Part shown: one piece after another, positions 316-60,812 of the stretch
How positions within the stretch are numbered: the stretch's first letter is position 1
Layout: each line of letters begins with the position of its first letter
From: Acidimicrobiaceae bacterium
GTDB taxonomy: Bacteria > Actinomycetota > Acidimicrobiia > Acidimicrobiales > RAAP-2
Length of the DNA stretch: 64,000 nt
Assembly: GCA_003153575.1 (NCBI GenBank)
Contig: PLZW01000043.1
Location: 1-64,000, forward strand
Direction of reading: 5' to 3'
Program-made: the position numbers and the translations under genes
The notes under the pieces: model-generated
Told to the model about the DNA's origin: nothing
The model's input: the letters and a program-made list of their open reading frames with translations, nothing else
The model's database searches: none

Positions 316-348
316 TACCCCCTACCAGGGGGTAGACACCGGTAGGCT
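316..348 (+). promoter_or_regulatory. fhaA promoter region with perfect palindrome
   Basis: A perfect 8-3-8 inverted repeat, taccccctaccagggggta, lies at 316-334. A -10-like hexamer TAGGCT follows at 343-348, nine bases before the fhaA start. No convincing -35 is visible. The palindrome could be an operator for the cell-wall signalling operon. Its position just upstream of the putative -10 fits a repressor or activator site, but no regulator is identified. Confidence 0.4.
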
Positions 349-357
349 GACGCCGAC

Positions 358-1014
358 ATGGGACTGCAGAAGTTCGAAGGGCGCCTCGAGCGCATGGTCG
401 ACGGCACCCTCTCCAAGGCCTTCCGGGGCGAGCTCCATCCTGTGGAGATCGGCCGACGGTTGACCCGGGAGATGGACCTCAAGCGACGCCTGGGCGTCCA
501 TGGCCTCATCGCGCCCAATGCCTTCGTGGTACACCTCTCGGCCTCGGACTTCGACCGCTTCGAGAGTTTTCTGGACGCCCTGGTGCGCGAGCTCGAGGAG
601 GCCGCCCGCGAGCACGCCCGGACCGAGGAGTACGTCTTCGTCGGGCCCGTGACCGTCTCGGTGGTGGAGGACCCACGCCAACGACGGGGTCGCTTCGCCG
701 TGGTATCCGACGTCCACGAGGGTCCCGCCGGCCTGTCCGCCGCCTCCGTCGTACTCGCCGACAACATGCGGGTGGTCCTGGGTCCCGAGCCGATCACCAT
801 CGGTCGGCTGCCCGAGAGCACCATCGTGATCAACGATCCCAACGCCAGCCGGCGGCACGCGGAGATCCGCCGCTCCGGGAACGACGTGATGGTCGTCGAC
901 CTCAATTCGACCAACGGCACCCGGGTCAACGGGGCCACTATCCGGGAACGGGTCCTTTCCGATGGCGACCAGATCGTGATCGGTACCACCGTGCTCCGGT
1001 TCGAGACGTCGTGA
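358..1014 (+). CDS. fhaA: FhaA-like protein: DUF3662 plus FHA domain
   Basis: This 218-residue protein has an N-terminal DUF3662 domain (about residues 3-120, starting GLQKFEGRLERMVDG) and a C-terminal FHA phosphothreonine-binding domain (about 138-216). The FHA core motifs are IGR, the S-RRHAEI strand and N-TNGTRVNG. In mycobacteria FhaA binds phosphorylated MviN and controls late peptidoglycan synthesis at septum and poles. The mycobacterial linker between the two domains is much longer, so this is a compact version. It is the first gene of an operon with fhaB, pstP, pbpA and pknB, and the ATG follows a TAGGCT element by nine bases. Confidence 0.92.
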   Translation: MGLQKFEGRLERMVDGTLSKAFRGELHPVEIGRRLTREMDLKRRLGVHGLIAPNAFVVHLSASDFDRFESFLDALVRELEEAAREHARTEEYVFVGPVTVSVVEDPRQRRGRFAVVSDVHEGPAGLSAASVVLADNMRVVLGPEPITIGRLPESTIVINDPNASRRHAEIRRSGNDVMVVDLNSTNGTRVNGATIRERVLSDGDQIVIGTTVLRFETS

Positions 1015-1030
1015 GTCCCGGCACCCGACC

Positions 1031-1525
1031 TTGACCCGGCTTCTCGTAGCTGCCGCCACCGCCCCCATCGACAACACCCCGGTGCTCCGCGCCCTCGAGT
1101 TCGGCGTCATCCTGTTGCTGTGGCTCTTCTTCATGTGGGTGGTCCGGGCCGTGTGGGTGGAGGTGCGGCCCCTCAAGCGCAAGCGCCGCCGCCGCAAGGA
1201 CGGCGATCCCGTCGTCGACGGCAAGCGCCGCCGCTCCCTCCGGCTCCATGTGATCCGCCCCGACGACCAGGCCGGCCGCGCCTACGACGTGGGCGAGGAG
1301 GTCACCGTGGGGCGGGCGCCGGGCTGCGGTGTTCCCATTGACTACGACTCCTATGCCTCCAACCTCCATGCCCGGCTCTTCCGCCTCGACGGCAACCTGT
1401 GGGTCGAGGACCTGGGGTCCACCAACGGTTCCTGGGTGAATACCGCGCGGATCGAGGAGCGGACCAAGCTGGAGAAAGGCGACCTTCTCCAGGTCGGCGG
1501 CACCGTGTTCGAGGTCGGTCGCTGA
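1031..1525 (+). CDS. fhaB: FhaB/FipA-like membrane-anchored FHA protein
   Basis: A 164-residue protein with one N-terminal membrane segment (about 20-42, FGVILLLWLFFMWVV), a basic linker (KRKRRRRKDG) and a C-terminal FHA domain (about 75-160, containing VGRAPGCG, LHARLF and STNGSWVN). Family members are substrates of PknA/PknB and link kinase signalling to divisome proteins. The start shown is TTG; no better start lies downstream before the membrane segment. It lies 16 bases after fhaA, and its stop is one base before the pstP start, so the genes are probably cotranscribed. Confidence 0.9.
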   Translation: MTRLLVAAATAPIDNTPVLRALEFGVILLLWLFFMWVVRAVWVEVRPLKRKRRRRKDGDPVVDGKRRRSLRLHVIRPDDQAGRAYDVGEEVTVGRAPGCGVPIDYDSYASNLHARLFRLDGNLWVEDLGSTNGSWVNTARIEERTKLEKGDLLQVGGTVFEVGR

Positions 1526-1526
1526 G

Positions 1527-4375: not shown

Positions 4376-4463
4376 GCCGGTCGACGGAGCCGCGGACCGC
4401 GCACCGAGCAGCACCATCCAGAACACCGGAACCGAGCGATAGCAGGCATAGGCTTTGACCCAC

Positions 4464-6266
4464 ATGGATCCCAACCAGTCGCCGCGCGTCTTTTCCGAGC
4501 GCTACGAACTCAACCACCTGATCGCACGCGGCGGCATGGCCGAGGTCTACCGCGCCCACGATCGCCTGCTCGATCGCCCGGTGGCGCTCAAGGTCCTCTT
4601 TCCGGAACTGTCGATCGACCGGTCCTTCGTCGAGCGGTTCCGCCGCGAGGCCCAGAACGCCGCCAACCTGTCCCATCCGAACATCGTGCCGGTGTTCGAC
4701 TGGGGCGAGGACACCGGGACCTACTTCATCGTCATGGAGTACATCGACGGCCGGCCCCTGTCCTCCATCCTCAAGTCGGCCGGCCCGCTCTCGGCCGAGC
4801 GGACCGCTGACATCGCCTCCCACGTGGCCGCCGCCCTGGGTTACGCCCACAAGCACGGCGTCGTCCACCGGGACGTGAAGCCCGGCAACGTGCTGATCAC
4901 CGACGACGGACAGGTCAAGGTGACCGACTTCGGGATCGCCCGGGCCGTCAACACCGAGGAGAGCCTCACCCAGACGGGTGCGGTCATGGGAACGGCAACC
5001 TACTTCTCACCCGAACAGGCCGAGGGCCTCGGGGTCGATTCGCGGAGCGACATCTACTCCCTCGGCGTCGTCCTCTTCGAAATGGTCACCGGTCGGCCAC
5101 CCTTCCTCGGCGAGTCGCCGGTAGCCGTCGCCTCCAAGCACGTGCGGGACAACCCACCGGCACCCAGGGAGCTCAACCCGCAGATCCCGCCGACCTTCGA
5201 GGCGATCATCCTGAAGGCGATGGCCAAGAACCCGGCCCACCGTTACGCCACCGCCGAGGAGCTGCGCGCCGACCTGCTGCGCTTCAACGAGGGCCGGAGC
5301 GTCCTGGCCATGGAGGACACCACGGCGATGATCGGCGTGGCCGGAGCCACGGCCGTCACCGCCGTCGGGGCCATGGACCTCACTCGTTCGGTCGATTCGG
5401 TCGGCGGATCCGGGTCCGACGGCGGATCCGGGTCCGACGGCGAGGCGCCCGACGAGTCCGGCACCAACCGGACCCGCAACTATGCCATCGCCCTGGTCTT
5501 GCTCCTGCTGCTGCTGGCGGTGGCGGGCTTCTTCCTCGGCCGCAACCTCGGATACTTCGGCGGCGACGCCTCGTTCAACATGCCCAACGTCGTCGGCCAG
5601 CAGGCCCAGGTGGCGACGGCCACCCTGCGCGCCGACGGCCTCAACGTCACCCAGGCCCAGCAGGTCTCGAGTGCAACCCCGGGCACGGTCATCTCCACGA
5701 ACCCGGGCGCCAGCGCACTGGTGAAAAAAGGTGACACGGTGATCATCAAAGTGGCCGAGGTGCCTCCGCCGATCCAGGTGGTGGTGCCCGAGGGCCTGGT
5801 CAACACGACGCAGGAGGCCGCCACGGCGATCCTCCAGAGCGCAGGACTGACGGCCACCGTCGTCAACCGGGTGAGTTCGGCGCAGAAGGGGACGGTGCTG
5901 AGCACGAACCCGACGTCGGGTACCAAGGTCAACCAAGGCTCTGCGGTGGCCTTGACTGTGTCCTCGGGCCCGGCCAACGCCATCGTGCCTTCCCTGGTCG
6001 GCCTGACACAGACGGTCGCCGGGCAGACCCTGGCCAACGCTGGTCTGGTGCCGGGCAACGTCACCAGTGTCGCCTCGTCCCAGTATGCGCCAGGCATCGT
6101 GGTGGCCTCGAACCCCGGCACAGGGGCCAGCGTGACGCCGGGCTCTCCGGTCGACATCGCAGTGTCCTCCGGACCGCCCCCCACCACCACCACCTCCACG
6201 TCGTCGTCGACCACCACGTCGACATCCTCGACCACCACCACGACCAAACCGGCGCATCGGAAATGA
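4464..6266 (+). CDS. pknB: PASTA-domain serine/threonine kinase PknB
   Basis: A 600-residue membrane kinase. The kinase domain (about 12-275) has the Gly-rich loop ARGGMAEVY, Lys43 (VALKV), the catalytic HRDVKPGN (Asp137) and DFG (Asp155-Gly157). After a juxtamembrane linker and a membrane helix (about 342-362) come three PASTA repeats (about 368-435, 438-505, 508-575) and a Thr/Ser-rich tail. PASTA repeats bind muropeptides or lipid II. The ATG at 4464 is preferred over the TTG at 4455 because TAGGCT at 4449-4454 lies just upstream. Only one kinase is present; the usual PknA neighbour is missing. Confidence 0.95.
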   Translation: MDPNQSPRVFSERYELNHLIARGGMAEVYRAHDRLLDRPVALKVLFPELSIDRSFVERFRREAQNAANLSHPNIVPVFDWGEDTGTYFIVMEYIDGRPLSSILKSAGPLSAERTADIASHVAAALGYAHKHGVVHRDVKPGNVLITDDGQVKVTDFGIARAVNTEESLTQTGAVMGTATYFSPEQAEGLGVDSRSDIYSLGVVLFEMVTGRPPFLGESPVAVASKHVRDNPPAPRELNPQIPPTFEAIILKAMAKNPAHRYATAEELRADLLRFNEGRSVLAMEDTTAMIGVAGATAVTAVGAMDLTRSVDSVGGSGSDGGSGSDGEAPDESGTNRTRNYAIALVLLLLLLAVAGFFLGRNLGYFGGDASFNMPNVVGQQAQVATATLRADGLNVTQAQQVSSATPGTVISTNPGASALVKKGDTVIIKVAEVPPPIQVVVPEGLVNTTQEAATAILQSAGLTATVVNRVSSAQKGTVLSTNPTSGTKVNQGSAVALTVSSGPANAIVPSLVGLTQTVAGQTLANAGLVPGNVTSVASSQYAPGIVVASNPGTGASVTPGSPVDIAVSSGPPPTTTTSTSSSTTTSTSSTTTTTKPAHRK

Positions 6267-6299: not shown

Positions 6300-6881
6300 T
6301 CAGCTGACGCGTGCGGCCAGGAAGTTGCTCAGGAGGGACGGGCCCTCAGGGGTGAGCAGCGACTCGGGGTGGAACTGGACACCCTCGACGGCCAGCGACC
6401 GGTGGCGCAGTCCCATGATCACCCCGTCGGAGGTGCGCGCCGTCACCTCGAGCTCTTCGGGCACGGTCGACGGTTCCACCACCAGTGAGTGGTAGCGGGT
6501 GGCGGTAAAGGGGTCGGGCAGGCCGGCGAAGACGCCCCGGCCGTCGTGGTGGATGGCTGAGGTCTTGCCGTGCATGAGGGTGGGCGCCTGGACCACGTCG
6601 CCCCCGAAGGCCTGGCCGATGGCCTGGTGGCCGAGGCAGACCCCGAGGATGGGGATCTCCCCGGCCAGTTCGGCGATGACCGCCAGCGACACACCGGCGT
6701 CTTCGGGGCGACCGGGCCCGGGGGAGATGAGGATCAGGTCGGGTGCCGCCTCCCGAATGGCGGCCACGTCGATGGTGTCGTTGCGGTGGACGACGGGGTC
6801 GGCCCCCAGTTCGCCCAGCTCCTGGACAAGGTTGTAGACGAACGAGTCGTAGTTGTCGATGACCAGCACGCGGGTCGCCAT
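6300..6881 (-). CDS. trpG: Glutamine amidotransferase TrpG/PabA (anthranilate or aminodeoxychorismate synthase component II)
   Basis: A 193-residue class I glutamine amidotransferase. It releases ammonia from glutamine for anthranilate or 4-amino-4-deoxychorismate synthase. The oxyanion segment PGPGRPEDAG, the nucleophile loop GVCLGHQAIGQAFGG and the His/Glu pair GVQFHPES are all present. The ATG at 6881 gives the canonical start (ATRVLVIDNYDSFVYNL). The gene is not in a trp operon; it is divergent from crgA as in mycobacteria, so a folate (PabA) or dual role is plausible. A TACGAT element lies nine bases upstream of the start. Confidence 0.93.
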   Translation of the reverse strand: MATRVLVIDNYDSFVYNLVQELGELGADPVVHRNDTIDVAAIREAAPDLILISPGPGRPEDAGVSLAVIAELAGEIPILGVCLGHQAIGQAFGGDVVQAPTLMHGKTSAIHHDGRGVFAGLPDPFTATRYHSLVVEPSTVPEELEVTARTSDGVIMGLRHRSLAVEGVQFHPESLLTPEGPSLLSNFLAARVS

Positions 6882-6947
6882 GGGGTCCCGATCGTACCGG
6901 GCGCCACGGGATGGGCGGGCCGGGCCCGCGGGCCGCCCGGCACTGGC

Positions 6948-6953
6948 TATCCT
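6948..6953 (+). promoter_or_regulatory. -10 element of leaderless crgA
   Basis: TATCCT ends six bases before the crgA ATG at 6960 and no Shine-Dalgarno is present, so transcription probably starts at or next to the A of the start codon. No -35 is recognisable. Confidence 0.5.
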
Positions 6954-6959
6954 TCGCCC

Positions 6960-7271
6960 ATGGCATCCACGGCCAAGCAGGGACCGGGCAAGGTCCAGAA
7001 GAAGGGCGGACGGGTGACCCCGTCGTCCAAGGGCGGCTCGTCCCCGTCCGGCTCGGTCCAGAACAGCCGCTATACGCCTCCGATCGACCGCAGCGCGAAG
7101 TCCAGCCCCCGCTGGCACGGGTTCCTGATCATTGGCATGTTCCTCCTCGGCGTGCTGATCGTGATCCTCAACTACGCCGGCGTGCTGCCCGGCGGCGTCA
7201 ACAACATCTGGTTGGTCGGCGCCATCGGGTCGATCTTCGTCGGGCTGCTGCTCGCCACCCGATACCACTGA
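6960..7271 (+). CDS. crgA: Cell division protein CrgA
   Basis: A 103-residue membrane protein with a basic, Ser/Gly-rich cytoplasmic N-terminus, the conserved segment SPRWHGFLIIGMFLLG and two membrane helices (about 55-75 and 82-100) joined by a short loop with LPGG. CrgA recruits FtsI and other proteins to the septum in actinobacteria. Its position divergent to trpG and near the pbpA-pknB operon matches mycobacterial gene order. The ATG at 6960 follows a -10 element by six bases, as expected for a leaderless transcript. Confidence 0.92.
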   Translation: MASTAKQGPGKVQKKGGRVTPSSKGGSSPSGSVQNSRYTPPIDRSAKSSPRWHGFLIIGMFLLGVLIVILNYAGVLPGGVNNIWLVGAIGSIFVGLLLATRYH

Positions 7272-8769: not shown

Positions 8770-8775
8770 TACGGT
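8770..8775 (+). promoter_or_regulatory. -10 element of leaderless thioesterase gene
   Basis: TACGGT ends seven bases before the ATG at 8783. No Shine-Dalgarno is visible between them. Confidence 0.45.
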
Positions 8776-8782
8776 CACTGCC

Positions 8783-9238
8783 ATGACAGGTCGGATCAAG
8801 GACATGGACCGCTGGCTGGGCAACGGGGGGATGGAGCTCATCGGCACCGTCGGCGGGTCGTTCGACGACTACGGGGTGGACGGCGAGGACCTGGGCTGGG
8901 TGTCGGGCGCCTTCGTGCCGACTCCGTCCGCCTGCAACCCGCACGGCATCGTGCAGGCCGGTGTCCACGGCCTCATCCTGGACGCGGCCATGAACTTCGC
9001 CATCAACGCCGCCCTGCCGGGCAAGTCGCGGACCCGGGCCACCTTGGAGATGAAGATCGAGACCATGCGGCCGGCCCTGGACGGCGGCACGTACGGACTG
9101 CGGGGCACGGTGGTCCGCATGGCCCGCCAGGTCGCCTACGCCGAAGCCGGCGTCACCGATGTCGACGGGCAGCTGGTCAGCCGTTCCACCGGCACGTTCC
9201 TGTTGCACCGGCCCGACGAAGCACCTACGGACATCTGA
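8783..9238 (+). CDS. PaaI-family hotdog thioesterase
   Basis: A 151-residue single hotdog-fold protein. The helix-containing segment HGIVQAGVHGLILDAAMNFAINAAL matches the PaaI/YbgC-type hotdog helix with the HG..hGG-like catalytic region, followed by the usual beta strands (TRATLEMKIETMRP, VAYAEAGVTD). Such enzymes hydrolyse acyl-CoA thioesters. The ATG at 8783 is chosen over upstream starts because a TACGGT -10 element lies seven bases before it. It is divergent from the thiolase, which suggests acyl-CoA metabolism. Confidence 0.8.
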   Translation: MTGRIKDMDRWLGNGGMELIGTVGGSFDDYGVDGEDLGWVSGAFVPTPSACNPHGIVQAGVHGLILDAAMNFAINAALPGKSRTRATLEMKIETMRPALDGGTYGLRGTVVRMARQVAYAEAGVTDVDGQLVSRSTGTFLLHRPDEAPTDI

Positions 9239-17713: not shown

Positions 17714-17719
17714 TAGGGT
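17714..17719 (+). promoter_or_regulatory. -10 element of leaderless cbiX-like gene
   Basis: TAGGGT ends seven bases before the GTG at 17727, with no Shine-Dalgarno between. Confidence 0.45.
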
Positions 17720-17726
17720 TGGCCCG

Positions 17727-18197
17727 GTGCAGGAGTCACCCGACAACGGAAGCGGCGGCGCCCCCGGCACCGTCGCGGTCATCATCATCGACCACGGCTC
17801 GCGCCGGGCCTCGGCCAACGCGTCCCTCGAGGAGTTCGTTCGGAGCTCGGCCCATGCGCTGCCCTATCCGATCGTCGAGCCGGCCCACATGGAGCTGGCC
17901 GAGCCGTCCCTGGCCTCGGCGTTCGACCGCTGCGTGGCCGCCGGAGCCTCCACCGTGGCCATCGCCCCCTACTTCCTCGGGCCGGGCAGCCACTGGGACC
18001 GCGACATCCCCGCCCTGGCCGCCGCCGCCAGCGCCCGGCACCCCGGTGTCCGTTGGTTAGTCGCCGCGCCGCTCGGACCCGATCGCGCCCTGGCCGAGAT
18101 CATCGCCACGCGGGTCGCCCACTGCCTCGACCACGTGGCGGGTCGGGCCGCCGAGTGCCCCACCTGTGCGGGCTCCGGTCGGTGCACCCTCCGTTGA
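17727..18197 (+). CDS. CbiX/SirB-like chelatase with C-terminal Cys cluster
   Basis: A 156-residue chelatase-fold protein. The N-terminal strand VAVIIIDHGSR carries the metal-binding His, and VEPAHMELAEPSLASAFDRCVAAGASTVAIAPYFLGPGSHWDRDIP is the second conserved block. Relatives insert Co, Fe or Ni into sirohydrochlorin. The C-terminus ends with C-x2-C-x5-C (CPTCAGSGRC), resembling metal or Fe-S binding tails of some CbiX proteins. No other tetrapyrrole genes are nearby, so the substrate is uncertain. Confidence 0.8.
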   Translation: MQESPDNGSGGAPGTVAVIIIDHGSRRASANASLEEFVRSSAHALPYPIVEPAHMELAEPSLASAFDRCVAAGASTVAIAPYFLGPGSHWDRDIPALAAAASARHPGVRWLVAAPLGPDRALAEIIATRVAHCLDHVAGRAAECPTCAGSGRCTLR

Positions 18198-20998: not shown

Positions 20999-21910
20999 TC
21001 AGGTCCGGGCGGACGCCGCGGGGGCGACCACCCATCGGAAGGCGTTGCCCAGCAGCCGGACCGAGGGCCGCACGGCCAACCGGTCACCGGCCGGCAGCGA
21101 GCGGAGTCCCAGCTGGCGTCGGGCCCAGGTGGGGAGGACGCCCCGGGCGGCGCCCACCAGAAGGCCGTAGGTGGCGAGCTCGTGGGGCCAGCGGCCCACC
21201 CCCCGCAGTACGAAGTTGCGGGCGGTGCGCGCCTCGGCCGTGAGGCGCAGTCGTGGCCGCACCTCGACGTAGTAGGCCTCGAGCCCGGCCGTCGACCGGG
21301 GGACGTCGACGGCGCCGAGGGCGAGGGCCACGGTGGCCATCTGGTCCAGGTAGTCGTCTGCCTCCTGGCGCGTGGGCGGGATCGGGGCATACACCCGGGA
21401 GGCGGCCAGGAAGCTGGACACCTCGGCGGCGTGCACCCAGGTCAGCAGGTCGGGGTCGGCGGCCGAGTACGGACGGCCGTCCGGGGCGACGCCCCGCACC
21501 CCTCGGTGGACCCGGCGCACGCGTTCGATGGCGGCCCGGGACTCGTCTTTGGTCCCGAAGGTGGTGGCGGCCAGGAATGAGGCCGTCCGCTCCAGGCGCC
21601 CGAGCGGATCCTGGCGGTAGTTCGAGTGCCGGGCCACGCCGGCCATGGCCAGGGGATGGAGCATCTGGAACAGGAGGGCGGACAGGCCGCCGATCAGCAT
21701 GGCGGGCAGGTCGCCGTGGATGCGCCGCACCACCGAGCCCGGGGCGACAAAGGCGAGATCGGGGTCGACGCACGCCACCGGGGGCTGGCTGGTCAACCCC
21801 ATCGACCGGCGGACGTGGATGAGGGCCTGCCCGCGGACCTGTTCGATGCGGTTCTCGGTCGCCGCCCGACCGACGGCGTGTGCCTCGAGGAGCTGCGCCC
21901 GGGGTTCCAT
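20999..21910 (-). CDS. Oxygenase MpaB family protein (DUF2236)
   Basis: A 303-residue all-helical protein of the DUF2236/MpaB/latex-clearing-protein superfamily. Diagnostic segments are GDLPAMLIGGLSALLFQMLHPLAMAGVARHSNYRQDPLGRLERTA with its candidate haem-ligand His residues, and LLTWVHAAEVSSFLAA. Characterised relatives bind b-type haem and cleave double bonds, including Lcp acting on rubber. The substrate here is unknown. It converges with the WS/DGAT gene and is near other lipid genes, consistent with a lipid-related oxidation. Confidence 0.85.
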   Translation of the reverse strand: MEPRAQLLEAHAVGRAATENRIEQVRGQALIHVRRSMGLTSQPPVACVDPDLAFVAPGSVVRRIHGDLPAMLIGGLSALLFQMLHPLAMAGVARHSNYRQDPLGRLERTASFLAATTFGTKDESRAAIERVRRVHRGVRGVAPDGRPYSAADPDLLTWVHAAEVSSFLAASRVYAPIPPTRQEADDYLDQMATVALALGAVDVPRSTAGLEAYYVEVRPRLRLTAEARTARNFVLRGVGRWPHELATYGLLVGAARGVLPTWARRQLGLRSLPAGDRLAVRPSVRLLGNAFRWVVAPAASART

Positions 21911-39998: not shown

Positions 39999-40004
39999 AC
40001 TGCT

Positions 40005-41429
40005 GTGACGCCTAACAGGCAGGCCAGTCCTGCTGCACGCAGCAGGCAGGCCCAAGCGGTCGACCGCATCCCGTGGACAACCGGCTCGCCACGTCGGCGC
40101 CGGCCGGGGTACGCCCCCCGTCCCTGGGTTGCCGACCTGCTCCTGGGCCTGGCCGGCCTGGGCCTCGGGATCACGCTGGCGCTTGTCGTCTCGGCTGAGA
40201 GTCGCGGCTCGCTCGTTGCCCCGGGTGGGCTCCTCCTGGCCGGGGGACGGCTCGCCGGGTTCGTCGGCACCTATCTGATCCTGGTCATGGTCGTACTGAT
40301 CGCCAGGCTGCCCTGGCTGGAGCGGGCCGTGGGCCAGGATCGGCTCGTGGCCTGGCACCGACGCCTCGGTCCGTGGGCGCTGTGGCTGATCACCGCCCAT
40401 GTCGTCCTGATCACCCTCGGGTACGCGCGCTTGTCGCACACTGGATTCTTGCGCCAGCTGTGGCTGTTCATCACCACCTACCCGGACCTCCTGGCCGCGA
40501 TGGTCGGGTTCGGTCTACTGATCATGGCCGGCGTCACCTCGATCCGGATCGCTCGCCGGCGGATGCAGTACGAGACCTGGTGGGTGGTCCACCTCTACTT
40601 CTACCTGGCCCTCGCCCTGGCCTTCGCCCACCAGGTGGTCACCGGCATCGCCTTCCTCGGGCACCCGCTGGCCCGGGCCTTCTGGATCGTGGTCTGGGCG
40701 GCCACCGCGGGCATGGTTCTCCTGTTCCGCGTCCTACTCCCCGTGCTGCGGAACCTGCGTCACCAGCTGAGGGTGGTGGCCGTCCGCGAGGAGGCCCCAG
40801 GCGTGTACTCCCTCACCTGCACCGGGCGGCACCTGTCGGACCTGGCCGTGTCCGGTGGTCAGTTCTTCCAGTGGCGGTTTCTCGCCCGGGGCCTGTGGTG
40901 GCACGCCCACCCGTATTCGCTCTCAGCGCTTCCGCAGGCGCCCTACCTCCGGGTTACCGTCAAGGGGCTGGGCGACCAGAGCCGGGCCGTGGCCAGGCTG
41001 CGCCCGGGCACCCGGGTGTTCGTCGAGGGCCCCTACGGCGCGTTCACCCATCACGTCCGGGCGACCGAGCGCGTCGTCCTGATCGGTGCCGGCGTCGGCA
41101 TCACCCCGCTTCGGGCCCTGCTCGAGGACCTCCCCGGGGGCGTGGCGGTCACGGTGGTCATCCGGGCGTCCACCGCGGAGGAGATCGCCCACCGTGCCGA
41201 AGTGGCCGAGCTGGTGGCGACGCGGGGAGGGCGGTTCTACGAGGTGCTCGGCCCCCGGCACGCGGTGCAGCTCGACGTCCGGACACTGCGGGGCATGGTG
41301 CCCGATCTGGCGCAGAGTGACGTCTACGTGTGCGGGCCGGAGGGATTCAACGACCTGGTGATCGCGTCGTGCATGCGTGCCGGGGTCCCGGGTGACCGCA
41401 TCCACGTCGAAGTGTTCTCGTTTTCATGA
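40005..41429 (+). CDS. Ferric-reductase-like transmembrane flavoprotein
   Basis: A 474-residue protein. The N-terminal part has about six helices of the ferric reductase-like (NOX/FRE) domain with candidate haem His residues (RLVAWHRRLGPWALWLITAHVVLI and VVHLYFYLALALAFAHQVV). The C-terminal ferredoxin-NADP reductase half has the FAD motif HPYSLS and NAD site GAGVGITPLRALL, ending VYVCGPEGF. It moves electrons from cytosolic NAD(P)H across the membrane. The GTG at 40005 is set by the -10 element. It heads an operon with FMN-bind and ApbE proteins. Confidence 0.88.
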   Translation: MTPNRQASPAARSRQAQAVDRIPWTTGSPRRRRPGYAPRPWVADLLLGLAGLGLGITLALVVSAESRGSLVAPGGLLLAGGRLAGFVGTYLILVMVVLIARLPWLERAVGQDRLVAWHRRLGPWALWLITAHVVLITLGYARLSHTGFLRQLWLFITTYPDLLAAMVGFGLLIMAGVTSIRIARRRMQYETWWVVHLYFYLALALAFAHQVVTGIAFLGHPLARAFWIVVWAATAGMVLLFRVLLPVLRNLRHQLRVVAVREEAPGVYSLTCTGRHLSDLAVSGGQFFQWRFLARGLWWHAHPYSLSALPQAPYLRVTVKGLGDQSRAVARLRPGTRVFVEGPYGAFTHHVRATERVVLIGAGVGITPLRALLEDLPGGVAVTVVIRASTAEEIAHRAEVAELVATRGGRFYEVLGPRHAVQLDVRTLRGMVPDLAQSDVYVCGPEGFNDLVIASCMRAGVPGDRIHVEVFSFS

Positions 41430-44778: not shown

Positions 44779-44784
44779 TAACGT
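44779..44784 (+). promoter_or_regulatory. -10 element of leaderless ppk
   Basis: TAACGT ends six bases before the GTG at 44791, with no Shine-Dalgarno. Confidence 0.45.
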
Positions 44785-44790
44785 TGGCAT

Positions 44791-46908
44791 GTGAGCGACG
44801 AACCCCTCCAAGGTGCCGCGACCGTCGCAGAGGAACGGCCCGAGACCCAGTACTTCGCCCGTCAGCTCTCCGACCTCGACTTCAACGACCGCCTGCTCGA
44901 CCTGGTGGCCGAGGCAGATCTTCCGCTCCTCGAGCGGGTGAAGTTCCTCATCCTGTTCTCCGAGCGGATCGACGAGTTCTTCCAGGTGCAGGTGGCCGGC
45001 CTGCGCCGCCAGGTGGTGGCCCGCATCACCAGCAAGGCCCTCAACGGCAGCACGCCCGACAAGCTCCTCGCCGACGTGCGGGCCTCGCTCGAGCGCATGG
45101 TGCGCCGCCAGGAGACCCTCCTGCTCGACACGTTGATCCCCACCTTGGCCGCCGAAGCCATCGAACTCGGCAATTGGGCTGACCTCGACGAGGCCGATCG
45201 GACGTACCTCCACGACCTCTTCGACCGGCTCATCCTCCCCGTCGTGACGCCCCTCACCGTCGATCCGAGCCACCCCTTCCCGTACATCTCGAACCTCTCG
45301 CTGAACATCGGGGTCGAGGTGCGCAGCCGCCACGACGACGCAGCCCGTTTCGCCAGGGTGAAGATCCCGCCGAACGTCGAACGGCTGCTGCCACTGCCCG
45401 GCGGGCAGCGCTTCATTCCCCTCGAACAGGTCATGATGGCATTCCTGGACGAGCTCTTCCCAGGTATGGACGTGGGCGAGGCTTGCGTGTTCCGGGTCAC
45501 CCGCGACGCCGACCTGGCTCTCGACGACGATGCCGCCGACGACCTGCTCCTCGCCCTCCAGGAGGAGCTCCGCCGCCGCCGGTTCTTGCCTGTGGTCCGC
45601 CTCGAGATCGACTCCCGGACCTCCGAGGCCTCGATCGACCACCTGACCGAAGAGCTCGGCCTCGGCCCTGACGACGTCTACCGCTTCGCCGGTCCGCTCG
45701 GTCTTGGATGCCTGTGGGCCATCCACGGTCTCGACCGGCCCGATCTGCACGACCCTCCGTGGACACCCCTCGTCCCCCCTGCCTTCACCACGGTGGAGCG
45801 GGAGGAGGGGGCCAGCATCTTCACCGTGCTCGATCGCCAGGACGTCCTCGTCCACCACCCCTACGACTCCTTTTCGGCATCGGTCGAGGAGCTGATGAAC
45901 GAGGCGGCCGAGGACCCCCACGTCCTGGCCATCAAGCAGTGCCTCTACCGCACCTCCGGCGACAGCGCGATCGTCGCCGCCCTGGTGCGGGCGGCCGAGC
46001 GGGGCAAGCAGGTGGCCGTGCTGGTCGAGGTCACCGCCCGATTCGACGAGGAGGCCAACATCGGGTGGGCCCGCGCCCTGGAAGAGGCAGGAGCCCACGT
46101 GATCTACGGGCTGATGGGCCTGAAGACCCACGCCAAGACGACGTTGGTCGTCCGACAGGAGGGCGACGCCGTCCGTCTCTACTGCCACGTCGGCACCGGC
46201 AACTACAACCCGAAGACGGCCCGCATGTACGAGGACCTCGGAGTCCTGTCGTGCCGGCCCGAGTTGGGGGCGGACGTCACCCGGTTCTTCAACTACATCA
46301 CGGGGTTCAGCCAACCCCCGCACTACCAGGAGCTGGTCACCTCGCCGGGCGGGATCCGCAACCGGGTGGTCGAGCTGATCGACGAAGAGGCCAAGGCCGG
46401 GCCGGACGGGCGCATCGCCATCAAGGTGAACGGGCTCGACGACGTGGCCGTCATCGACGCCCTGTACCGGGCCTCCCAGGCCGGGGTGCCCGTCGAGCTG
46501 ATCATCCGCGGCATCTGCTGCCTGCGTCCGGGGGTGCCTGGGCTGTCCGAGACGGTGCACGTGCGGTCGATCGTCGGCCGCTTCCTCGAGCACTCGAGGA
46601 TCCTGCGATTCGGCGGCGCCACCGGACGGCCGGCGATCTACTACATCGGTTCTGCCGACCTCCGCCGACGGAACCTGGACCGCCGGGTGGAGGCAATGAT
46701 CCCGGTGGCCGACGCGGACTCCGTGGGGCGCCTCGAGGAGATCCTGACGCTCAACCTGGCCGACGACGTCCAGTCGTGGTCGCTGGCGTCCGACGGCTCG
46801 TGGCACCGGATCCCGACCGTCCTGGGCAATGCCACCCAGACCGCGCTCGAGGAGGCGGCGCTGAAGCGGGGCGACCTGCTCGACCGGCCCCGGAATCCGC
46901 TGGGCTGA
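44791..46908 (+). CDS. ppk: Polyphosphate kinase PPK1
   Basis: A 705-residue PPK1 that makes polyphosphate from ATP. The autophosphorylated His447 lies in GLKTHAKTTLVVRQ, the HVGTGNYNPKTARMYEDL block follows, and the C-terminal domain carries the second HKD-like site (YYIGSADLRRRNLDRRVEA). Length and domain order match standard PPK1. It is divergent from the pyrophosphatase with a shared 125-base region. The start is GTG. Confidence 0.96.
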   Translation: MSDEPLQGAATVAEERPETQYFARQLSDLDFNDRLLDLVAEADLPLLERVKFLILFSERIDEFFQVQVAGLRRQVVARITSKALNGSTPDKLLADVRASLERMVRRQETLLLDTLIPTLAAEAIELGNWADLDEADRTYLHDLFDRLILPVVTPLTVDPSHPFPYISNLSLNIGVEVRSRHDDAARFARVKIPPNVERLLPLPGGQRFIPLEQVMMAFLDELFPGMDVGEACVFRVTRDADLALDDDAADDLLLALQEELRRRRFLPVVRLEIDSRTSEASIDHLTEELGLGPDDVYRFAGPLGLGCLWAIHGLDRPDLHDPPWTPLVPPAFTTVEREEGASIFTVLDRQDVLVHHPYDSFSASVEELMNEAAEDPHVLAIKQCLYRTSGDSAIVAALVRAAERGKQVAVLVEVTARFDEEANIGWARALEEAGAHVIYGLMGLKTHAKTTLVVRQEGDAVRLYCHVGTGNYNPKTARMYEDLGVLSCRPELGADVTRFFNYITGFSQPPHYQELVTSPGGIRNRVVELIDEEAKAGPDGRIAIKVNGLDDVAVIDALYRASQAGVPVELIIRGICCLRPGVPGLSETVHVRSIVGRFLEHSRILRFGGATGRPAIYYIGSADLRRRNLDRRVEAMIPVADADSVGRLEEILTLNLADDVQSWSLASDGSWHRIPTVLGNATQTALEEAALKRGDLLDRPRNPLG

Positions 46909-49620: not shown

Positions 49621-49650
49621 TTGCCAAATGGCGTATCCCCGCCCTACGGT
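49621..49650 (+). promoter_or_regulatory. Promoter of fur gene
   Basis: TTGCCA (49621-49626), an 18-base spacer and TACGGT (49645-49650) precede the GTG at 49660 by nine bases. Confidence 0.5.
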
Positions 49651-49659
49651 GAGGACACT

Positions 49660-50130
49660 GTGAGCAGGTCCCTTCCCGTCCACGACCACCTCCATGAGGT
49701 CCACACCGTCGAGGACGTGCTGGCCCTGGTGCGCGAGCACGGCGGCCGCGTCACCAACTCCCGCCGGCTCCTGTTGGAGGCGCTCTTCCACGAGCCTGGT
49801 CACCGGACGGCCGAGGAACTGGCCGAGACCGTCCAGTCCCACGCTCCCGACGTGGCCCTCTCCACCGTCTACCGGAATCTCGACGAGTTGGAGAAGCTGG
49901 GGGTGGTGGTCCACTCCCACCTCGGCCACGGTCCGGCCACGTATCACCTCGCCTCCGGCGCCCACTGCCATTTTGTCTGCCAGGACTGCGGGGCAGCCGT
50001 CGAGGCACCGGACGAGCTGTTCACGGGGTTGGCCGGTTCGGCCCTCGAACGGTTCGGATTCGAGATCGACACCCGGCACTTCGCCATCTTCGGACGCTGC
50101 GCCGACTGCCGGAAGGGGACCGGGGTATGA
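49660..50130 (+). CDS. Fur-family metal regulator
   Basis: A 156-residue Fur/Zur-type repressor. The winged helix (HTAEELAETVQSHAPDVALSTVYRNLDELEKLGVV) is followed by the dimer domain with His-rich AHCHFVCQDCG and a C-terminal CADC; the four Cys form the structural Zn site. Residue patterns fit Zur or FurB more than heme regulators, but the metal is not certain. The start is GTG. It overlaps the VOC gene (ATGA), an unusual partner. Confidence 0.9.
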   Translation: MSRSLPVHDHLHEVHTVEDVLALVREHGGRVTNSRRLLLEALFHEPGHRTAEELAETVQSHAPDVALSTVYRNLDELEKLGVVVHSHLGHGPATYHLASGAHCHFVCQDCGAAVEAPDELFTGLAGSALERFGFEIDTRHFAIFGRCADCRKGTGV

Positions 50131-51781: not shown

Positions 51782-52210
51782 TCAGGCGCCGGACGGCTCG
51801 GCGACGACCGACAACGGGGTGTAGGACTCGTCGTAGTAGGTGCCGCCCTCGAGGAGGGCCGTCACCGCCCGACGGAGCCGGATGGGGTCGAGCGGCTTGA
51901 CCAACCAGCCTTCGGCGCCCGATCGGCGGGCCAGGAAGACGTCGGGGCGCCGGTCCAGCAGCATGAGGACCGGGACATGGTCGATCTTGTCGTAGGAGGC
52001 CTCGAGGCGCAGCTCGAGCGTGGTGGCCATGCCTCCCATGTTGCCCATCTGCATGTCGACGATCACCAGGTCGGGCATCGACTCGCCCACGATGGCCATC
52101 ACCTCGGGTCCCGACCGGGCCTCGACGATCTCGATGCCGGGCGAGCCGGCGGTGGCGGCGATCTCGGCCCGGACCGTCGGAGCGTCACTCGCCACGAGGA
52201 TGGTCGGCAC
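51782..52210 (-). CDS. Stand-alone response regulator receiver domain
   Basis: A 142-residue CheY-like domain. The phosphoacceptor Asp is in DLVIVDMQMG and the Lys in GWLVKPLDP. The acidic pocket normally formed by two acidic residues has only one in TILVASDAP, so Mg binding may be altered. No histidine kinase is nearby. The GTG start lies seven bases after TAACCT. It sits just behind the ArsA pair on the same strand but has its own promoter. Confidence 0.88.
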   Translation of the reverse strand: MPTILVASDAPTVRAEIAATAGSPGIEIVEARSGPEVMAIVGESMPDLVIVDMQMGNMGGMATTLELRLEASYDKIDHVPVLMLLDRRPDVFLARRSGAEGWLVKPLDPIRLRRAVTALLEGGTYYDESYTPLSVVAEPSGA

Positions 52211-52217
52211 GTCCGAG

Positions 52218-52223
52218 AGGTTA
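52218..52223 (-). promoter_or_regulatory. -10 element of leaderless receiver gene
   Basis: TAACCT on the minus strand ends seven bases before the GTG at 52210. Confidence 0.45.
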
Positions 52224-53441: not shown

Positions 53442-54457
53442 TGAGCCACCGGGTCGGGCTCGTGGAGGGCCTCGATGCACCGGGCCAGGGCCTGGCTGAG
53501 GGTGTCGAGCTCGAGGGGACCGATGGTGTCGGTAAAGAGGTACGGTACCCGCAGTTGGGCGAGGGGCAGCTCACGGGCCAACCGGGTCACCTGCTCCTCC
53601 TGGAGCCCTTGGCGGCGCCGGCGGAACAGGCGGGCCTGCTCCAGCGCCTCGACCAGCCGGGGGTCGAGGTCGACCCCCGTCGCGGCCACGGTGTCGGCGG
53701 CCGGGGTGGCCAGCCCTTCCATCGGCGGGTAGCAGGCGTTGACGATGACGGGGCCGAGGGCGATCCCGACCTTGTCCTCGAGCTGGTATGCAGCCTCCAC
53801 CACTTCGTTGACCGGCATCTCCTCGGGCAGGGTCACGAGCGCGACCTGACACCGCTTCGGGTCCGAGAGCAGGGCGACCACGTCGGCGGCCTGGGCGCGG
53901 ATCGGCCCGGCCCGGGCGGCATCGAGGAGACCGCCCGCCGAGGACAGGAACGTCATCGTGTGCCCGGTGGCCGGTGCGTCCACCAGGACGAGGTCGGCCA
54001 CCCCCCGCTGCTCGATCTGCTTGACCTTGCCGAGGACCAGGATGTCCCGGATCCCGGGGATGGCCCCGGCGACGATGTCGATGATCCCCGAGGACAGCAG
54101 GCGCTTGGAGAACCGCTTCATCCCGTGGTCGTCCAGGTACTCGAGCAGTGCGTCGTCCGGGGTGATGGTCCGGGCGTGGACGACGCCGGGCGGGATCGCC
54201 GCCCCGTCGTCGCTGTCGCCCCCGCCGATCCCTTTGGCCCCGGCAGCATGCAGGACCTCGCCGGCGTAGCCGAGACCTCCTGAGCCCCCGAAGGCGGTGG
54301 ACACCCCGGTCCGGCCCTCCAGCTCGATGACCAGGACGGACAGTCCGGCACCAGCGGCCAGATGAGCGAGCGCGGCGACCATCGTGGTCTTGCCGACACC
54401 GCCCTTGCCGGCCACAATCACGACACGGCTCTGGCTGCAGAAGGAGCGGATGTCCAT
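53438..54457 (-). CDS. ArsA/Get3-family ATPase, first of a pair
   Basis: A 339-residue ATPase (VVIVAGKGGVGKTTMVAALAHLAAGAG, switch DLVLVDAPATGHTMTFL). It matches the Rv3679-type partner. With the downstream gene it would form a heterocomplex related to tail-anchored protein or anion handling. The divergent WhiB gene mirrors the mycobacterial Rv3679-Rv3680-whiB4 arrangement. TACGCT lies nine bases before its ATG. Confidence 0.88.
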   Translation of the reverse strand: MDIRSFCSQSRVVIVAGKGGVGKTTMVAALAHLAAGAGLSVLVIELEGRTGVSTAFGGSGGLGYAGEVLHAAGAKGIGGGDSDDGAAIPPGVVHARTITPDDALLEYLDDHGMKRFSKRLLSSGIIDIVAGAIPGIRDILVLGKVKQIEQRGVADLVLVDAPATGHTMTFLSSAGGLLDAARAGPIRAQAADVVALLSDPKRCQVALVTLPEEMPVNEVVEAAYQLEDKVGIALGPVIVNACYPPMEGLATPAADTVAATGVDLDPRLVEALEQARLFRRRRQGLQEEQVTRLARELPLAQLRVPYLFTDTIGPLELDTLSQALARCIEALHEPDPVAQ

Positions 54458-54592
54458 GACTCACCGAGCGTAGTGTCCGCCCTCGCGGGGTCGGCCCCGC
54501 CTGCCCGGGGCGATCGCGACACTGTGCTGTGCCCGGATTGTCACGCTCGGCGCGAAAGCGGCGGAAATTCTCCCCCAACCTCCGTTCACCTC

Positions 54593-57626: not shown

Positions 57627-57632
57627 TAGAGT
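57627..57632 (+). promoter_or_regulatory. -10 element of leaderless hydrolase gene
   Basis: TAGAGT ends six bases before the ATG at 57639. Confidence 0.45.
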
Positions 57633-57638
57633 GGCCCG

Positions 57639-58622
57639 ATGTCGTGTGACGCGTCGGCCCTGGTCGGACCAGGGGCATCCGGGAACGGCGCCACCGTCAC
57701 GCCGGGTGACCAGGCTCGTCGAGCCGGTGTGCGGGACACGTTCGACCGGTCGGGGGAACCCCCCGGGCGCGAGTTGCGGTCGGTGTCGTGGCGGTCGACG
57801 AACGTCGACGGACACCGGGTCCGCTACGGCGTGGTGGGCTCGGGCCCGGATGCGCTGTTCTGCCACGGATGGGGGCTCCGTCCCAACGCCTACGCCCGTC
57901 CGATCGTCGCCATGGCCTCAGCCGGCTGCCGGGTGGTGGCACCTGCGCTGCCTGGTTTCGGCAGGACGCCTGAGCTGCCCCCGGCCGAGCGGACCTTCGC
58001 CGGCTACGGCGCATGGGTGGCCCGGTTCCTCGAGGCGGTCGGCGTCGACGACCTGGCCCTGGTGGCGGGTCACTCGATGGGCGGCGGGGTGGCCACCTCC
58101 TTCGTGCACCGCCGGCCCGAGCGGGTGGCCTCGCTCCTCCTGGTCAATGCCATCGGGAGTCCGACGTGGGCCCTGTTCCCGAACGAGGTCCGGACCATGG
58201 TCCAGCGACCGTTCTGGGACTGGGGACGCCACTTCTGGGGCGACCTCCTCCATTCGCCCCGCGCCCTGCGGGTGCTGCCCGTCCTGCTCGAGGACTTCAT
58301 CCCCAACATCGTCCGCAATCCGCTGGGGATGGTCCGCACGGGCGAGTTCATCCGCAAGGCCGACCTGGTGGCCGAGGTGCGGGACATCGCCGGACGGGGG
58401 ACGTCGGTGGCGGTGGCGTGGTCCGACCGGGACGGCCTGGTACCCCGCTCGGCCTTCGACGACCTGCGTCGCGCCGCCGGCGTCGAAGGCGTGGTGGTCG
58501 AGGGGCCCCATGCCTGGCTGATCGCCGATCCGCACATCTTCGGCGAGCTGGCCATCAGCGCCCTGGTCGACGCCCGGCCGGGTACCGGCGCCGCCGACGG
58601 CGCCTCCGTGCCCCTCCACTAG
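57639..58622 (+). CDS. Alpha/beta hydrolase
   Basis: A 327-residue hydrolase. The nucleophile Ser is in VAGHSMGGGVATS, an Asp in SDRDGLVPRS and the His in EGPHAWLIADP; the oxyanion loop is FCHGWGLRPN. It resembles BioH/ester hydrolases of actinobacteria, but the substrate is unknown. The first 50 residues are unlike the family, so the true start may be later, although the leaderless -10 supports 57639. Confidence 0.85.
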   Translation: MSCDASALVGPGASGNGATVTPGDQARRAGVRDTFDRSGEPPGRELRSVSWRSTNVDGHRVRYGVVGSGPDALFCHGWGLRPNAYARPIVAMASAGCRVVAPALPGFGRTPELPPAERTFAGYGAWVARFLEAVGVDDLALVAGHSMGGGVATSFVHRRPERVASLLLVNAIGSPTWALFPNEVRTMVQRPFWDWGRHFWGDLLHSPRALRVLPVLLEDFIPNIVRNPLGMVRTGEFIRKADLVAEVRDIAGRGTSVAVAWSDRDGLVPRSAFDDLRRAAGVEGVVVEGPHAWLIADPHIFGELAISALVDARPGTGAADGASVPLH

Positions 58623-58682: not shown

Positions 58683-58688
58683 TAGCGT
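58683..58688 (+). promoter_or_regulatory. -10 element of leaderless Nudix gene
   Basis: TAGCGT ends six bases before the ATG at 58695. Confidence 0.45.
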
Positions 58689-58694
58689 GCGGGC

Positions 58695-59600
58695 ATGGCC
58701 GTGACTCTGCGAGAAGCCGCGACGGTGATGCTCATCCGGGACGCCGTCGACGAACGTGGGCGCCCGGCCGTCGAGGTCTGCATGCTCCGCCGCAACCTGG
58801 CCAGCGAGTTCGTGGCCGGGGTCTACGTGTTTCCGGGGGGCTCCGTCGACCCCGCGGATCGTGGCGACGCGGCCGGCGAGCTCAGCCAAGGCCTGTCCGA
58901 CGCCACGGCCAGCGCCCTCCTGGGCCTCGACTCGGGCGGCCTGGCCTTCTGGGTGGCCGCCCTGCGCGAGTGCTTCGAAGAGGCGGGCGTACTGCTGGCC
59001 CGACCCCGCGACTCGGCCGACGGCACGGCGATCCTCGACACCACGGACCCCGCCGACCGGGCCCGCTTCGAGGCCCACCGCCTGGAGATCAACGAGGGGA
59101 GGGCCGGCCTGCTCGACGTGTGCCGGGCCGAGGGCCTGGTCCTGGCGGTCGACGCCGTGCACTACGTCAGCCACTGGATCACCCCGGAGCTGGCCCCGAG
59201 GCGGTACGACACCCGGTTTTTCGTCACGGCCGCCCCACCCGGCCAGGTGGCCCAGCACGACGACGGCGAGACCATCGCCACCATCTGGGTCCGGCCGGAC
59301 GACGCCCTGTCCCGGTTCGAGGCGGGGGAGATCGAGCTGCTGCCCCCGACGGTCGAGAACCTCGGGAAGCTGGCCGTCCACCACTCGACCGAGGAGGTCA
59401 TGGACTGGGCCCGCGGGGTCACCGACGTCCCCATGATCCTCCCCATCGTGCTCATCGAAGACGGGCGGCTCCTGGTGCTGCGGCCCGGCGACGACGGCTA
59501 CGAGCAGGCGGTCGAGGACCGGATCGCCTCCTCCGACCCCGTGTCGCCGGAACTGGCCGCGGCCTGGGAGGCCTGGCGCCCGAAGGCCGGTCGGGCCTAA
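58695..59600 (+). CDS. Nudix hydrolase, NUDT19/RNH-type
   Basis: A 301-residue Nudix protein. The Nudix box elements are GGSVDP at the start and ALRECFEEAGVLL (R-E-C-F-E-E-A-G) about 55 residues later; the insert between them is typical of NUDT19-like enzymes that cleave CoA esters. The Mg-binding Glu residues are intact. It converges with mrp, their stop codons overlapping by four bases. Confidence 0.88.
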   Translation: MAVTLREAATVMLIRDAVDERGRPAVEVCMLRRNLASEFVAGVYVFPGGSVDPADRGDAAGELSQGLSDATASALLGLDSGGLAFWVAALRECFEEAGVLLARPRDSADGTAILDTTDPADRARFEAHRLEINEGRAGLLDVCRAEGLVLAVDAVHYVSHWITPELAPRRYDTRFFVTAAPPGQVAQHDDGETIATIWVRPDDALSRFEAGEIELLPPTVENLGKLAVHHSTEEVMDWARGVTDVPMILPIVLIEDGRLLVLRPGDDGYEQAVEDRIASSDPVSPELAAAWEAWRPKAGRA

Positions 59601-60799
59601 GCGGGCTCGCCGGCGGCCACGGCCGCCTCGACCCGTTCCAGCATCCGGGCGGTGCATCCATCCATCGACACCACCGGCGGCGGGTTGGCCACCAGCGCGT
59701 CGGCCAAGCGGGCGAACTCGGCGGCCAACGGCTGATCGTCGTCGAGGGCGACCGGGACACCGGCGTCCCCTCCGGCCGACACCGACGGGTGGAGCGGCAC
59801 CTGGCCGAGCAGCGGCACCCCGACCTCGGCCGCCAGGCGGGCCCCGCCCCCGGAGCCGAACAGGGCGTAGGACGTCCCGTGCTCGCAGGTGAAGTCACTC
59901 ATGTTCTCGACCACCCCCGTGACCCGCAGATAGCCCTTGCGGGCCATGTCCGCGGTGCGGGCCGCCACCTTCTGGGCGGCGACCGGCGGGGTCGTGACCA
60001 CCACGATCTCGGCGCGCGGCATCATCCGGGCCAGGCCCATCTGGATGTCCCCCGTGCCCGGGGGCATGTCGATCAGCAGGAAGTCGAGGTCGCCCCAGTG
60101 GACGTCCTCCAGGAACTGCTGGACGGCGCGGTTGAGGACGAGGCCCCGCCACATGATGGCGTGCTCCTCGTCGGCCAGGAACCCCATCGACAGCACCCGG
60201 AGGGTCCCGGTGCCGATGCTGCGCTCGAGCGGGACCATCTTTTTGTCGCGGGCCTCGACGTCCCCCTGCATCCCGAGGAGCCGCGGCACGCTGAAGCCCC
60301 AGATGTCGGCATCCAGCACGCCCACCGTCAGGCCTCGACGGGCGAGCGCCACCGCCAGGTTGACGGTCACCGAGCTCTTCCCGACCCCGCCCTTGCCGGA
60401 GGCGATGGCCACCACCCGGGCCGAGTCGGGGACGTCCGTCTTCGGCGGGTCCTGGCGGGCATTGAGGCGGGCCCGGGCCATGACCGACCGCTTCTGGTCC
60501 TCGTCCATCACCCCGGTGGTCACCGTGACGGTCCCGACACCGGGCAGTGCGCCCACGTGGAGGTCGACGTCGCGCTGGATCTGGGCCCGCAGTGGGCATC
60601 CGGCGATGGTCAGGGCCACCTCGACCCCGATGTCGGGGCCGTCCACCCGGACCCGGGTGACCATGCCCAGCTCCACGATGTCGGCCCCCAGCTCGGGGTC
60701 CATGACGTTGCGCAGGGCGGCGCGGACCTCGTCCTCGGTGGGAGTGGGGCCGTCGGTGGGAGTGGGTCCGTCGACGCCCGGTGGGTCGGTCCTGGTCAC
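59597..60799 (-). CDS. mrp: Mrp/NBP35-type Fe-S carrier ATPase
   Basis: A 400-residue protein with an N-terminal MIP18/DUF59 domain (about 22-105, RAALRNVMDPELGADIVELGMVTRV) and a ParA-like ATPase domain with ASGKGGVGKSSVTVNLAVALARRG and DFLLIDMPPGTGD. The NBP35-type CxxC is not visible near the end; only single Cys such as ENMSDFTCEHG and MDGCTARM remain. It carries and delivers Fe-S clusters. The GTG at 60799 is set by TACAAT seven bases upstream. It is divergent from erpA. Confidence 0.92.
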   Translation of the reverse strand: MTRTDPPGVDGPTPTDGPTPTEDEVRAALRNVMDPELGADIVELGMVTRVRVDGPDIGVEVALTIAGCPLRAQIQRDVDLHVGALPGVGTVTVTTGVMDEDQKRSVMARARLNARQDPPKTDVPDSARVVAIASGKGGVGKSSVTVNLAVALARRGLTVGVLDADIWGFSVPRLLGMQGDVEARDKKMVPLERSIGTGTLRVLSMGFLADEEHAIMWRGLVLNRAVQQFLEDVHWGDLDFLLIDMPPGTGDIQMGLARMMPRAEIVVVTTPPVAAQKVAARTADMARKGYLRVTGVVENMSDFTCEHGTSYALFGSGGGARLAAEVGVPLLGQVPLHPSVSAGGDAGVPVALDDDQPLAAEFARLADALVANPPPVVSMDGCTARMLERVEAAVAAGEPA

Positions 60800-60806
60800 A
60801 GCCGGA

Positions 60807-60812
60807 ATTGTA
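60807..60812 (-). promoter_or_regulatory. -10 element of leaderless mrp
   Basis: TACAAT on the minus strand ends seven bases before the GTG at 60799. Confidence 0.5.

Follow-up and report, generated by a model that had tools for sequence, protein, structure and literature searches.

Leaderless genes, whose mRNA begins at the start codon itself, are a familiar feature of the Actinobacteria. We describe evidence for their presence in an Acidimicrobiaceae bacterium, centred on a 64,000 base window (the whole stretch of DNA analysed, bases 1-64000 of contig 34) in which the hexamer TANNNT stands directly before many start codons. The closest described systems are summarized here from parts of three reports. 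Zheng et al. 2011 (PMC3160421) placed TANNNT approximately 12 bp upstream of the start of leaderless genes, which averaged 19.2% (2.3-29.8) of genes in 86 of 89 Actinobacteria; in the high-GC groups, the middle three positions of the hexamer carried little information. The transcript map of Mycobacterium tuberculosis by Cortes et al. 2013 (PMC3898074) showed TANNNT with no conserved -35 element, and preceded by [G/C][A/G]N, often CGN, with TGN in only 7%. About a quarter of the M. tuberculosis genes with a primary start were leaderless, and both ATG and GTG were used. Finally, Zhong et al. 2025 (PMC12340547) described TANNNT approximately 6-7 bp before ORFs in Deinococcus-Thermus, with T/A/T nearly invariant among relatives; nearly a third of Deinococcus radiodurans genes were involved, and the commonest hexamer was TACACT.

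Against the parts of these reports that we drew on, the lineage studied here does not differ in kind from other Actinobacteria, and its share of 14-20% of genes matches their reported abundance. The TANNNT hexamer, the missing -35 element, the CGN extension and the use of ATG and GTG are all shared with M. tuberculosis, in which transcripts were mapped, whereas leaderlessness here is read from the DNA sequence. ATG is somewhat commoner at TANNNT starts in our data, unlike in M. tuberculosis, where the balance of ATG and GTG differs little from class to class. Hexamers abutting ORFs, T/A/T conservation and the coexistence of GGAG-type ribosome sites are shared with Deinococcus-Thermus, which belongs to another phylum and differs in its commonest hexamer (TACACT, compared with TAGCCT here). 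No account of leaderless genes in Acidimicrobiia was found in the part of the literature that our search covered, and the parts of Zheng et al. used here do not single out this class, of which one member may be among their 89 genomes. The arrangement is a known actinobacterial habit, here in a little-studied, uncultured lineage of the Acidimicrobiales, to which the present analysis extends it with measured conservation.

Sequence data and gene calling

The source assembly comprises 2.98 Mb in 43 contigs and is 76% complete. The best named matches of a PknB-like kinase gene of the window (start 4464) were metagenome-assembled Acidimicrobiales and Acidimicrobiaceae, including some isolate names with 'bog'. 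Genome-wide tests were made on 1,214,279 bases, 41% of the genome including the window, with a GC content of 70%. Genes were called by a program that scores codon usage and start-codon type only and ignores the letters upstream. It returned 1040 genes at 88% coverage, 952 of which were complete and had sufficient upstream DNA. The caller discards genes overlapping by >60 bases, and a PP2C gene of the window (1527-2870) was lost in that way. Throughout, the gap is the number of bases between the last base of TANNNT and the start codon.

TANNNT is sharply concentrated immediately before start codons

The preliminary description of the window had proposed widespread leaderless transcription from such hexamers, and had named the lack of a genome-wide TANNNT peak at gaps of 6-9 bases as the observation that would speak against it. 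A sharp peak was present in the sampled part of the genome. TANNNT occurred at gaps 5, 6, 7, 8, 9 and 10 before 3, 67, 31, 22, 13 and 4 of the 952 starts, respectively, and at any gap from 5 to 9 before 136 (14.3%). In windows shifted to gaps 15-19 and 22-26, the counts were 8/952 and 9/952, and only 18 of 13,585 internal in-frame ATG or GTG codons carried the hexamer. When positions -25 to -1 were permuted within each gene, 300 shuffles gave 11.4 starts at gap 6-9 on average and never more than 22, compared with 133/952 observed. The shuffle mean bears out the earlier estimate that composition alone would place the hexamer at a percent or two of starts, and the excess is approximately twelvefold. 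When the 64 XYNNNZ patterns were ordered by their surplus at gap 6-8, TANNNT headed the list, with 120 occurrences where shifted windows averaged 8.0; the runner-up, GANNNG, reached 116 where they averaged 69.2. The commonest individual hexamer in the sampled genome was TAGCCT (13/133), and ATG was commoner at TANNNT starts than at other starts (84/136 vs 387/816, p 0.002).

To allow for alternative start codons, near-equivalent starts with a similar coding score were also considered. TANNNT was then found at 181-191 of 949 genes, compared with decoy means of 23-31 for 13 decoy hexamers. The share of genes is thus approximately 14% at caller starts, 19-20% with near-equivalent starts and roughly 17% after decoy subtraction. 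The decoy background is probably overestimated, because several decoys share letters with TANNNT; one of these, TNNNAT, was found at 37 genes at caller starts and at 54-64 with near-equivalent starts. On these figures, roughly every sixth or seventh gene probably has an mRNA whose first bases are those of the start codon.

The same caller found comparable frequencies in relatives: 81/499 in genus-level kin (from stretches selected as homologous to the window), and 17/95, 18/108 and 18/99 in three order-level genomes. Annotated starts of Escherichia coli K-12 showed no peak, with 3/132 at gap 5-9 compared with 11, 12, 11 and 17 at four shifted gap ranges; this set of 132 annotated genes excluded cut genes, pseudogenes, one alternative product and the short gene appX.

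The hexamer has the character of a promoter element

The position of TANNNT within transcription units is that expected of a promoter. It was found at 106/607 first genes of a unit (those whose preceding gene is on the opposite strand or lies >60 bases away) and at 5/241 operon-internal genes (≤20 bases from a same-strand gene; odds ratio 10, p 1e-11), with 25/104 among the remainder. This distribution is hard to reconcile with an alternative in which transcripts begin further upstream and TANNNT acts in translation, as an AT-rich box in the mRNA to which the ribosome binds: operon-internal genes need ribosome binding but no promoter. The five operon-internal genes with an abutting hexamer (L009:1063, L017:3537, L019:10288, L034:1311 and L038:12873; low ends, 0-based) may have internal promoters or wrongly set starts.

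The earlier statement that the listed genes were without Shine-Dalgarno sequences holds genome-wide as a tendency. The tetramers GGAG, GAGG or AGGA were present at -18 to -4 in 9/136 TANNNT starts, compared with 258/816 others (p 5e-11) and 12.3% at internal codons. The 16S rRNA gene was sought for its anti-Shine-Dalgarno tail, and none was present in the 76%-complete assembly; in the part of PMC10783764 drawn on here, UCACCUCCUU is given for the class Acidimicrobiia in the context of the 16S anti-Shine-Dalgarno.

The base before the start codon was C or T in 105/136 TANNNT starts and in 407/816 others (p 2e-9). By gap, the proportion was 69% at 6 (n=67), 81% at 7 (n=31), 91% at 8 (n=22) and 85% at 9 (n=13), and A stood at -1 in 3% of TANNNT starts, compared with 10-11% of other starts. 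With a pyrimidine favoured at this position, the A or G that opens the start codon would become the first purine available to the polymerase. Upstream of the hexamer, CG was found at -15/-14 in 39/136 TANNNT starts, against a background of 13%. No shared -35 motif was seen: columns -36 to -4 held ≤0.05 bits, except for 0.07 at -11, and at least four matches to TTGACA at a spacer of 15-19 occurred in 15/136 starts and 37/408 shifted controls.

Start codons with an abutting hexamer in the window

All 20 starts listed in the preliminary description were checked, and every coordinate and gap was confirmed: TANNNT lies at gap 6-8 in 15 genes and at gap 9 in five. One further TANNNT start, at 31420, was absent from that list. 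The 21 features are given below; x/y kept is the number of homologous starts retaining TANNNT.

343..358, + strand: TAGGCT, gap 9, ATG 358; fhaA-like gene (FhaA_N + FHA, Pfam); 27/29 kept
4449..4464, + strand: TAGGCT, gap 9, ATG 4464; PknB-like Ser/Thr kinase with PASTA repeats; 23/29 kept
6881..6896, - strand: TACGAT, gap 9, ATG 6881; class-I glutamine amidotransferase; 47/47 kept, at gap 6-9
6948..6960, + strand: TATCCT, gap 6, ATG 6960; CrgA-like gene (Pfam CrgA), divergent from 6881; 13/13 kept
8770..8783, + strand: TACGGT, gap 7, ATG 8783; hotdog-fold (PaaI-like) thioesterase, NCBIfam match below cut-off; 8/8 kept
17714..17727, + strand: TAGGGT, gap 7, GTG 17727; CbiX-domain gene; 1/2 kept
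21910..21924, - strand: TAGGGT, gap 8, ATG 21910; MPAB/Lcp-domain gene; 5/5 kept
23755..23768, - strand: TACGGT, gap 7, GTG 23755; melibiase (GH36) gene; 4/4 kept
27727..27740, + strand: TAACAT, gap 7, ATG 27740; PadR regulator; 1/1 kept
31420..31432, - strand: TACAAT, gap 6, GTG 31420; Glyoxalase match below cut-off; no homolog in the compared DNA
33033..33045, + strand: TACCTT, gap 6, GTG 33045; SnoaL-like gene; no homolog in the compared DNA
34517..34529, - strand: TAGCGT, gap 6, ATG 34517; TetR regulator; no homolog in the compared DNA
37998..38010, + strand: TATGAT, gap 6, ATG 38010; ArsR regulator; no homolog in the compared DNA
39993..40005, + strand: TACCGT, gap 6, GTG 40005; ferric-reductase-like gene; start codon absent at all three homologous places
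44779..44791, + strand: TAACGT, gap 6, GTG 44791; polyphosphate kinase; 7/7 kept
49645..49660, + strand: TACGGT, gap 9, GTG 49660; Fur-family regulator; 4/5 kept
52210..52223, - strand: TAACCT, gap 7, GTG 52210; response-regulator receiver gene; 12/12 kept
54457..54472, - strand: TACGCT, gap 9, ATG 54457; ArsA/Get3-type ATPase; 11/11 kept
57627..57639, + strand: TAGAGT, gap 6, ATG 57639; alpha/beta hydrolase; 2/2 kept
58683..58695, + strand: TAGCGT, gap 6, ATG 58695; NUDIX gene; 12/12 kept
60799..60812, - strand: TACAAT, gap 7, GTG 60799; NUBPL/ParA-type P-loop NTPase; 2/2 kept

The amidotransferase of 6881 is presumably of the TrpG/PabA type. The caller chose the listed start in 16 of the 20 cases and placed a hexamer at gap 5-9 before 17 of the 66 window genes. 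For 23755, 38010 and 57639 it preferred other starts, by 1.8, 0.4 and 1.1 nats, respectively, and crgA (6960) was uncalled. The hexamer provides a practical rule for start-codon correction and promoter placement in such genomes, with 3 of the 20 listed starts differing from the caller and one uncalled. Among the start codons that had been selected by the hexamer, that of the GH36 gene was upheld by 4/4 homologous starts and that of the hotdog-fold gene by 8/8 with a start codon at the site (of 13 places); the PadR start was also upheld, by a single homologous start (1/1).

The hexamer is retained at homologous starts

Homologs of window genes were found by tblastn in the DNA of relatives, comprising 19 of 20 loci (the window's own locus being set aside), 55 of 80 loci and 40 of 40 of a third set; the 25 loci left out (L138-L162) were mostly Bacilli and other Firmicutes-type records. 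For this comparison, starts 23755, 38010 and 57639 were taken at their listed positions, and 6960 was added by hand. Hits were not used if identity was <45% (<35% for genes outside the window) or if they began after residue 12; for the outside-window genes, a hit also had to cover at least 60% of the query. Start regions with the same sequence entered the counts a single time. A start codon stood at the homologous site in 189/232 places for TANNNT genes and 159/236 for other genes, and the outside-window comparison lost 229 hits for want of one.

TANNNT at gap 5-10 was kept at 179/189 homologous starts, representing 16 genes, compared with 3/159 for window genes without the hexamer and 2/189 in a shifted-window control. 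Addition of the outside-window pairs (G007 and the order-level stretches) gave 185/202 vs 4/205; alone, those pairs gave 23/30 vs 1/41. Retention was 62/65 at 80-100% protein identity, 45/45 at 70-80%, 42/46 at 60-70% and 17/18 at 50-60%. Usable homologs were lacking in the compared DNA for 5 of the 21 genes (31420, 33045, 34517, 38010 and 40005), any one of which could be a chance match.

For gene 6881, all 47 homologous starts keep the hexamer, down to 58% identity, with gap 9 in most genus-level kin and gap 6, 7 or 8 elsewhere. The sources of these homologs are kin at genus, family and order level, together with records titled mostly Acidimicrobiales, Microthrixaceae, Actinomycetes and Actinomycetota, with one from Acidobacteria. 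Because the spacing slides from 6 to 9 while the hexamer is kept, the gap-9 genes belong in one class with those at gap 6-8. The sliding also counts against a ribosome-binding box, as does the CG extension upstream, which the hexamer shares with the mycobacterial -10 element as reported in the part of Cortes et al. drawn on above.

Conservation was then resolved by column, using 186 pairs of <90% identity from 16 genes. In gapped alignments made blind to the motif, T/A/T was identical in 0.97 of comparisons, NNN in 0.78 and the flank (-18 to -7) in 0.555 (T/A/T over NNN, p 0.001; over flank, p 0.0002). Unrelated genes of the TANNNT set, aligned in the same way, gave 0.78, 0.48 and 0.545 (spacer). 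In the flank, true homologs are indistinguishable from noise, and a gene-specific core, at approximately -4 to +6 of the hexamer, lies well above it.

Probable leaderless transcription and its alternatives

The position of the peak, the bias towards first genes, the pyrimidine at -1 and the conservation at homologous starts support the proposal of the preliminary description. We put the probability at roughly 93% that these genes undergo leaderless transcription from -10-dominated promoters abutting their start codons, a reading drawn from sequence. The hexamers would be the -10 elements of housekeeping promoters placed directly against the coding sequence. RNA polymerase would begin at the start codon's own purine or, in the gap-9 class, as many as approximately 3 bases ahead of it, and the genes of that class could have leaders of 0-3 nt. 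The resulting mRNA would have neither a 5' leader nor a Shine-Dalgarno site, and the ribosome would start on the 5'-terminal AUG or GUG. The transcript starts, the sigma factor used and the translation of the leaderless mRNA are the parts of this scheme that we infer.

Several observations weigh against this reading or reduce the force of the evidence for it. The leaderless fraction depends on start calling, with the PP2C gene lost and crgA missed by the caller; such missed genes and wrongly set starts probably lower the fraction. Homolog pairs share ancestry and are not independent, and gene 6881 alone contributes 47/189. Retention drops at low identity, to 19/28 at 35-50%, and to 2/7 for those of the pairs outside the window. 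Unrelated TANNNT genes already reach 0.78 at T/A/T, because the motif is common to them. In a comparison of columns without gaps, T/A/T (0.61-0.63) did not stand apart from the middle positions (0.53-0.61), since the spacing slides among relatives. Over all gaps together, there was no pyrimidine enrichment at -2 or -3. Finally, columns -25/-24 from the hexamer were 0.74 identical among homologs, compared with 0.57 and 0.56 in the control, and the whole -35 zone 0.61 compared with 0.57. The mildly raised identity at -25/-24 lies close to the expected onset of a -35 element, and some genes may have a gene-specific conserved element there.

The best-surviving alternative accepts the hexamers as real -10 promoters and places the transcript starts slightly ahead of the coding sequence, giving ultra-short leaders of 1-5 nt. 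The starts at gaps 8, 9 and 10 (22, 13 and 4 of 952) are in its favour, as are the purines that several of the gap-9 genes, for example 358 and 54457, have at -2 or -3. The usual spacing of a -10 element puts +1 on the start codon at gap 6. Gap 6 is the mode (67/952), and purines are avoided at -1, most strongly at gaps 8-9, which makes ultra-short leaders unlikely; the distinction would hardly alter the mechanism. The ribosome-binding box discussed above can claim a spacing to the start codon as tight as that of a ribosome-binding site, yet in view of its rarity at operon-internal genes, the CG extension and the sliding gap, we regard it as very improbable. Least probable of all is that chance matches in AT-richer intergenic DNA acquired start codons chosen to fit, as the caller's preference for other starts at 23755, 38010 and 57639 might suggest, an explanation rejected for the set as a whole because upstream-blind starts give the same peak, because shuffles, 13 decoy hexamers and internal codons give none, and because relatives conserve the hexamer.

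Returning to leaderless transcription from abutting promoters, the retention of a -10 element at 47/47 homologous starts of 6881 while the spacing slides over 6-9 leads us to speculate, tentatively, that selection has long maintained the leaderless state of individual genes across the Acidimicrobiales and neighbouring lineages, and that this state is not a product of drift under weak promoter constraint. We consider this somewhat doubtful. If true, it would point to an expression programme that leaderless mRNAs have in common, slow growth being one possible setting. The strong gene-by-gene conservation makes selection on leaderless initiation testable.

Observations at individual loci

Upstream of the ArsR gene at 38010, the segment 37976-38003 (+ strand) contains TTGACG, 16 bases and TATGAT, with a palindrome (CCGATATCGG core) within the spacer, recognized by eye. 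This region has the look of a leaderless promoter that carries both hexamers and is autorepressed. The amidotransferase gene 6881 (- strand) and crgA 6960 (+ strand) point away from each other; the stretch between their start codons measures 78 bases, and each gene has an abutting -10. Between the PP2C gene (1527-2870) and kinase 4464, a penicillin-binding protein gene is present, leaving no room for a RodA/FtsW gene, which occupies that place in other actinobacteria. The window also contains two hotdog-fold thioesterase-like genes, at 33449-33895 and 8783-9238, and the abutting -10 is found only at the weaker match, 8783.

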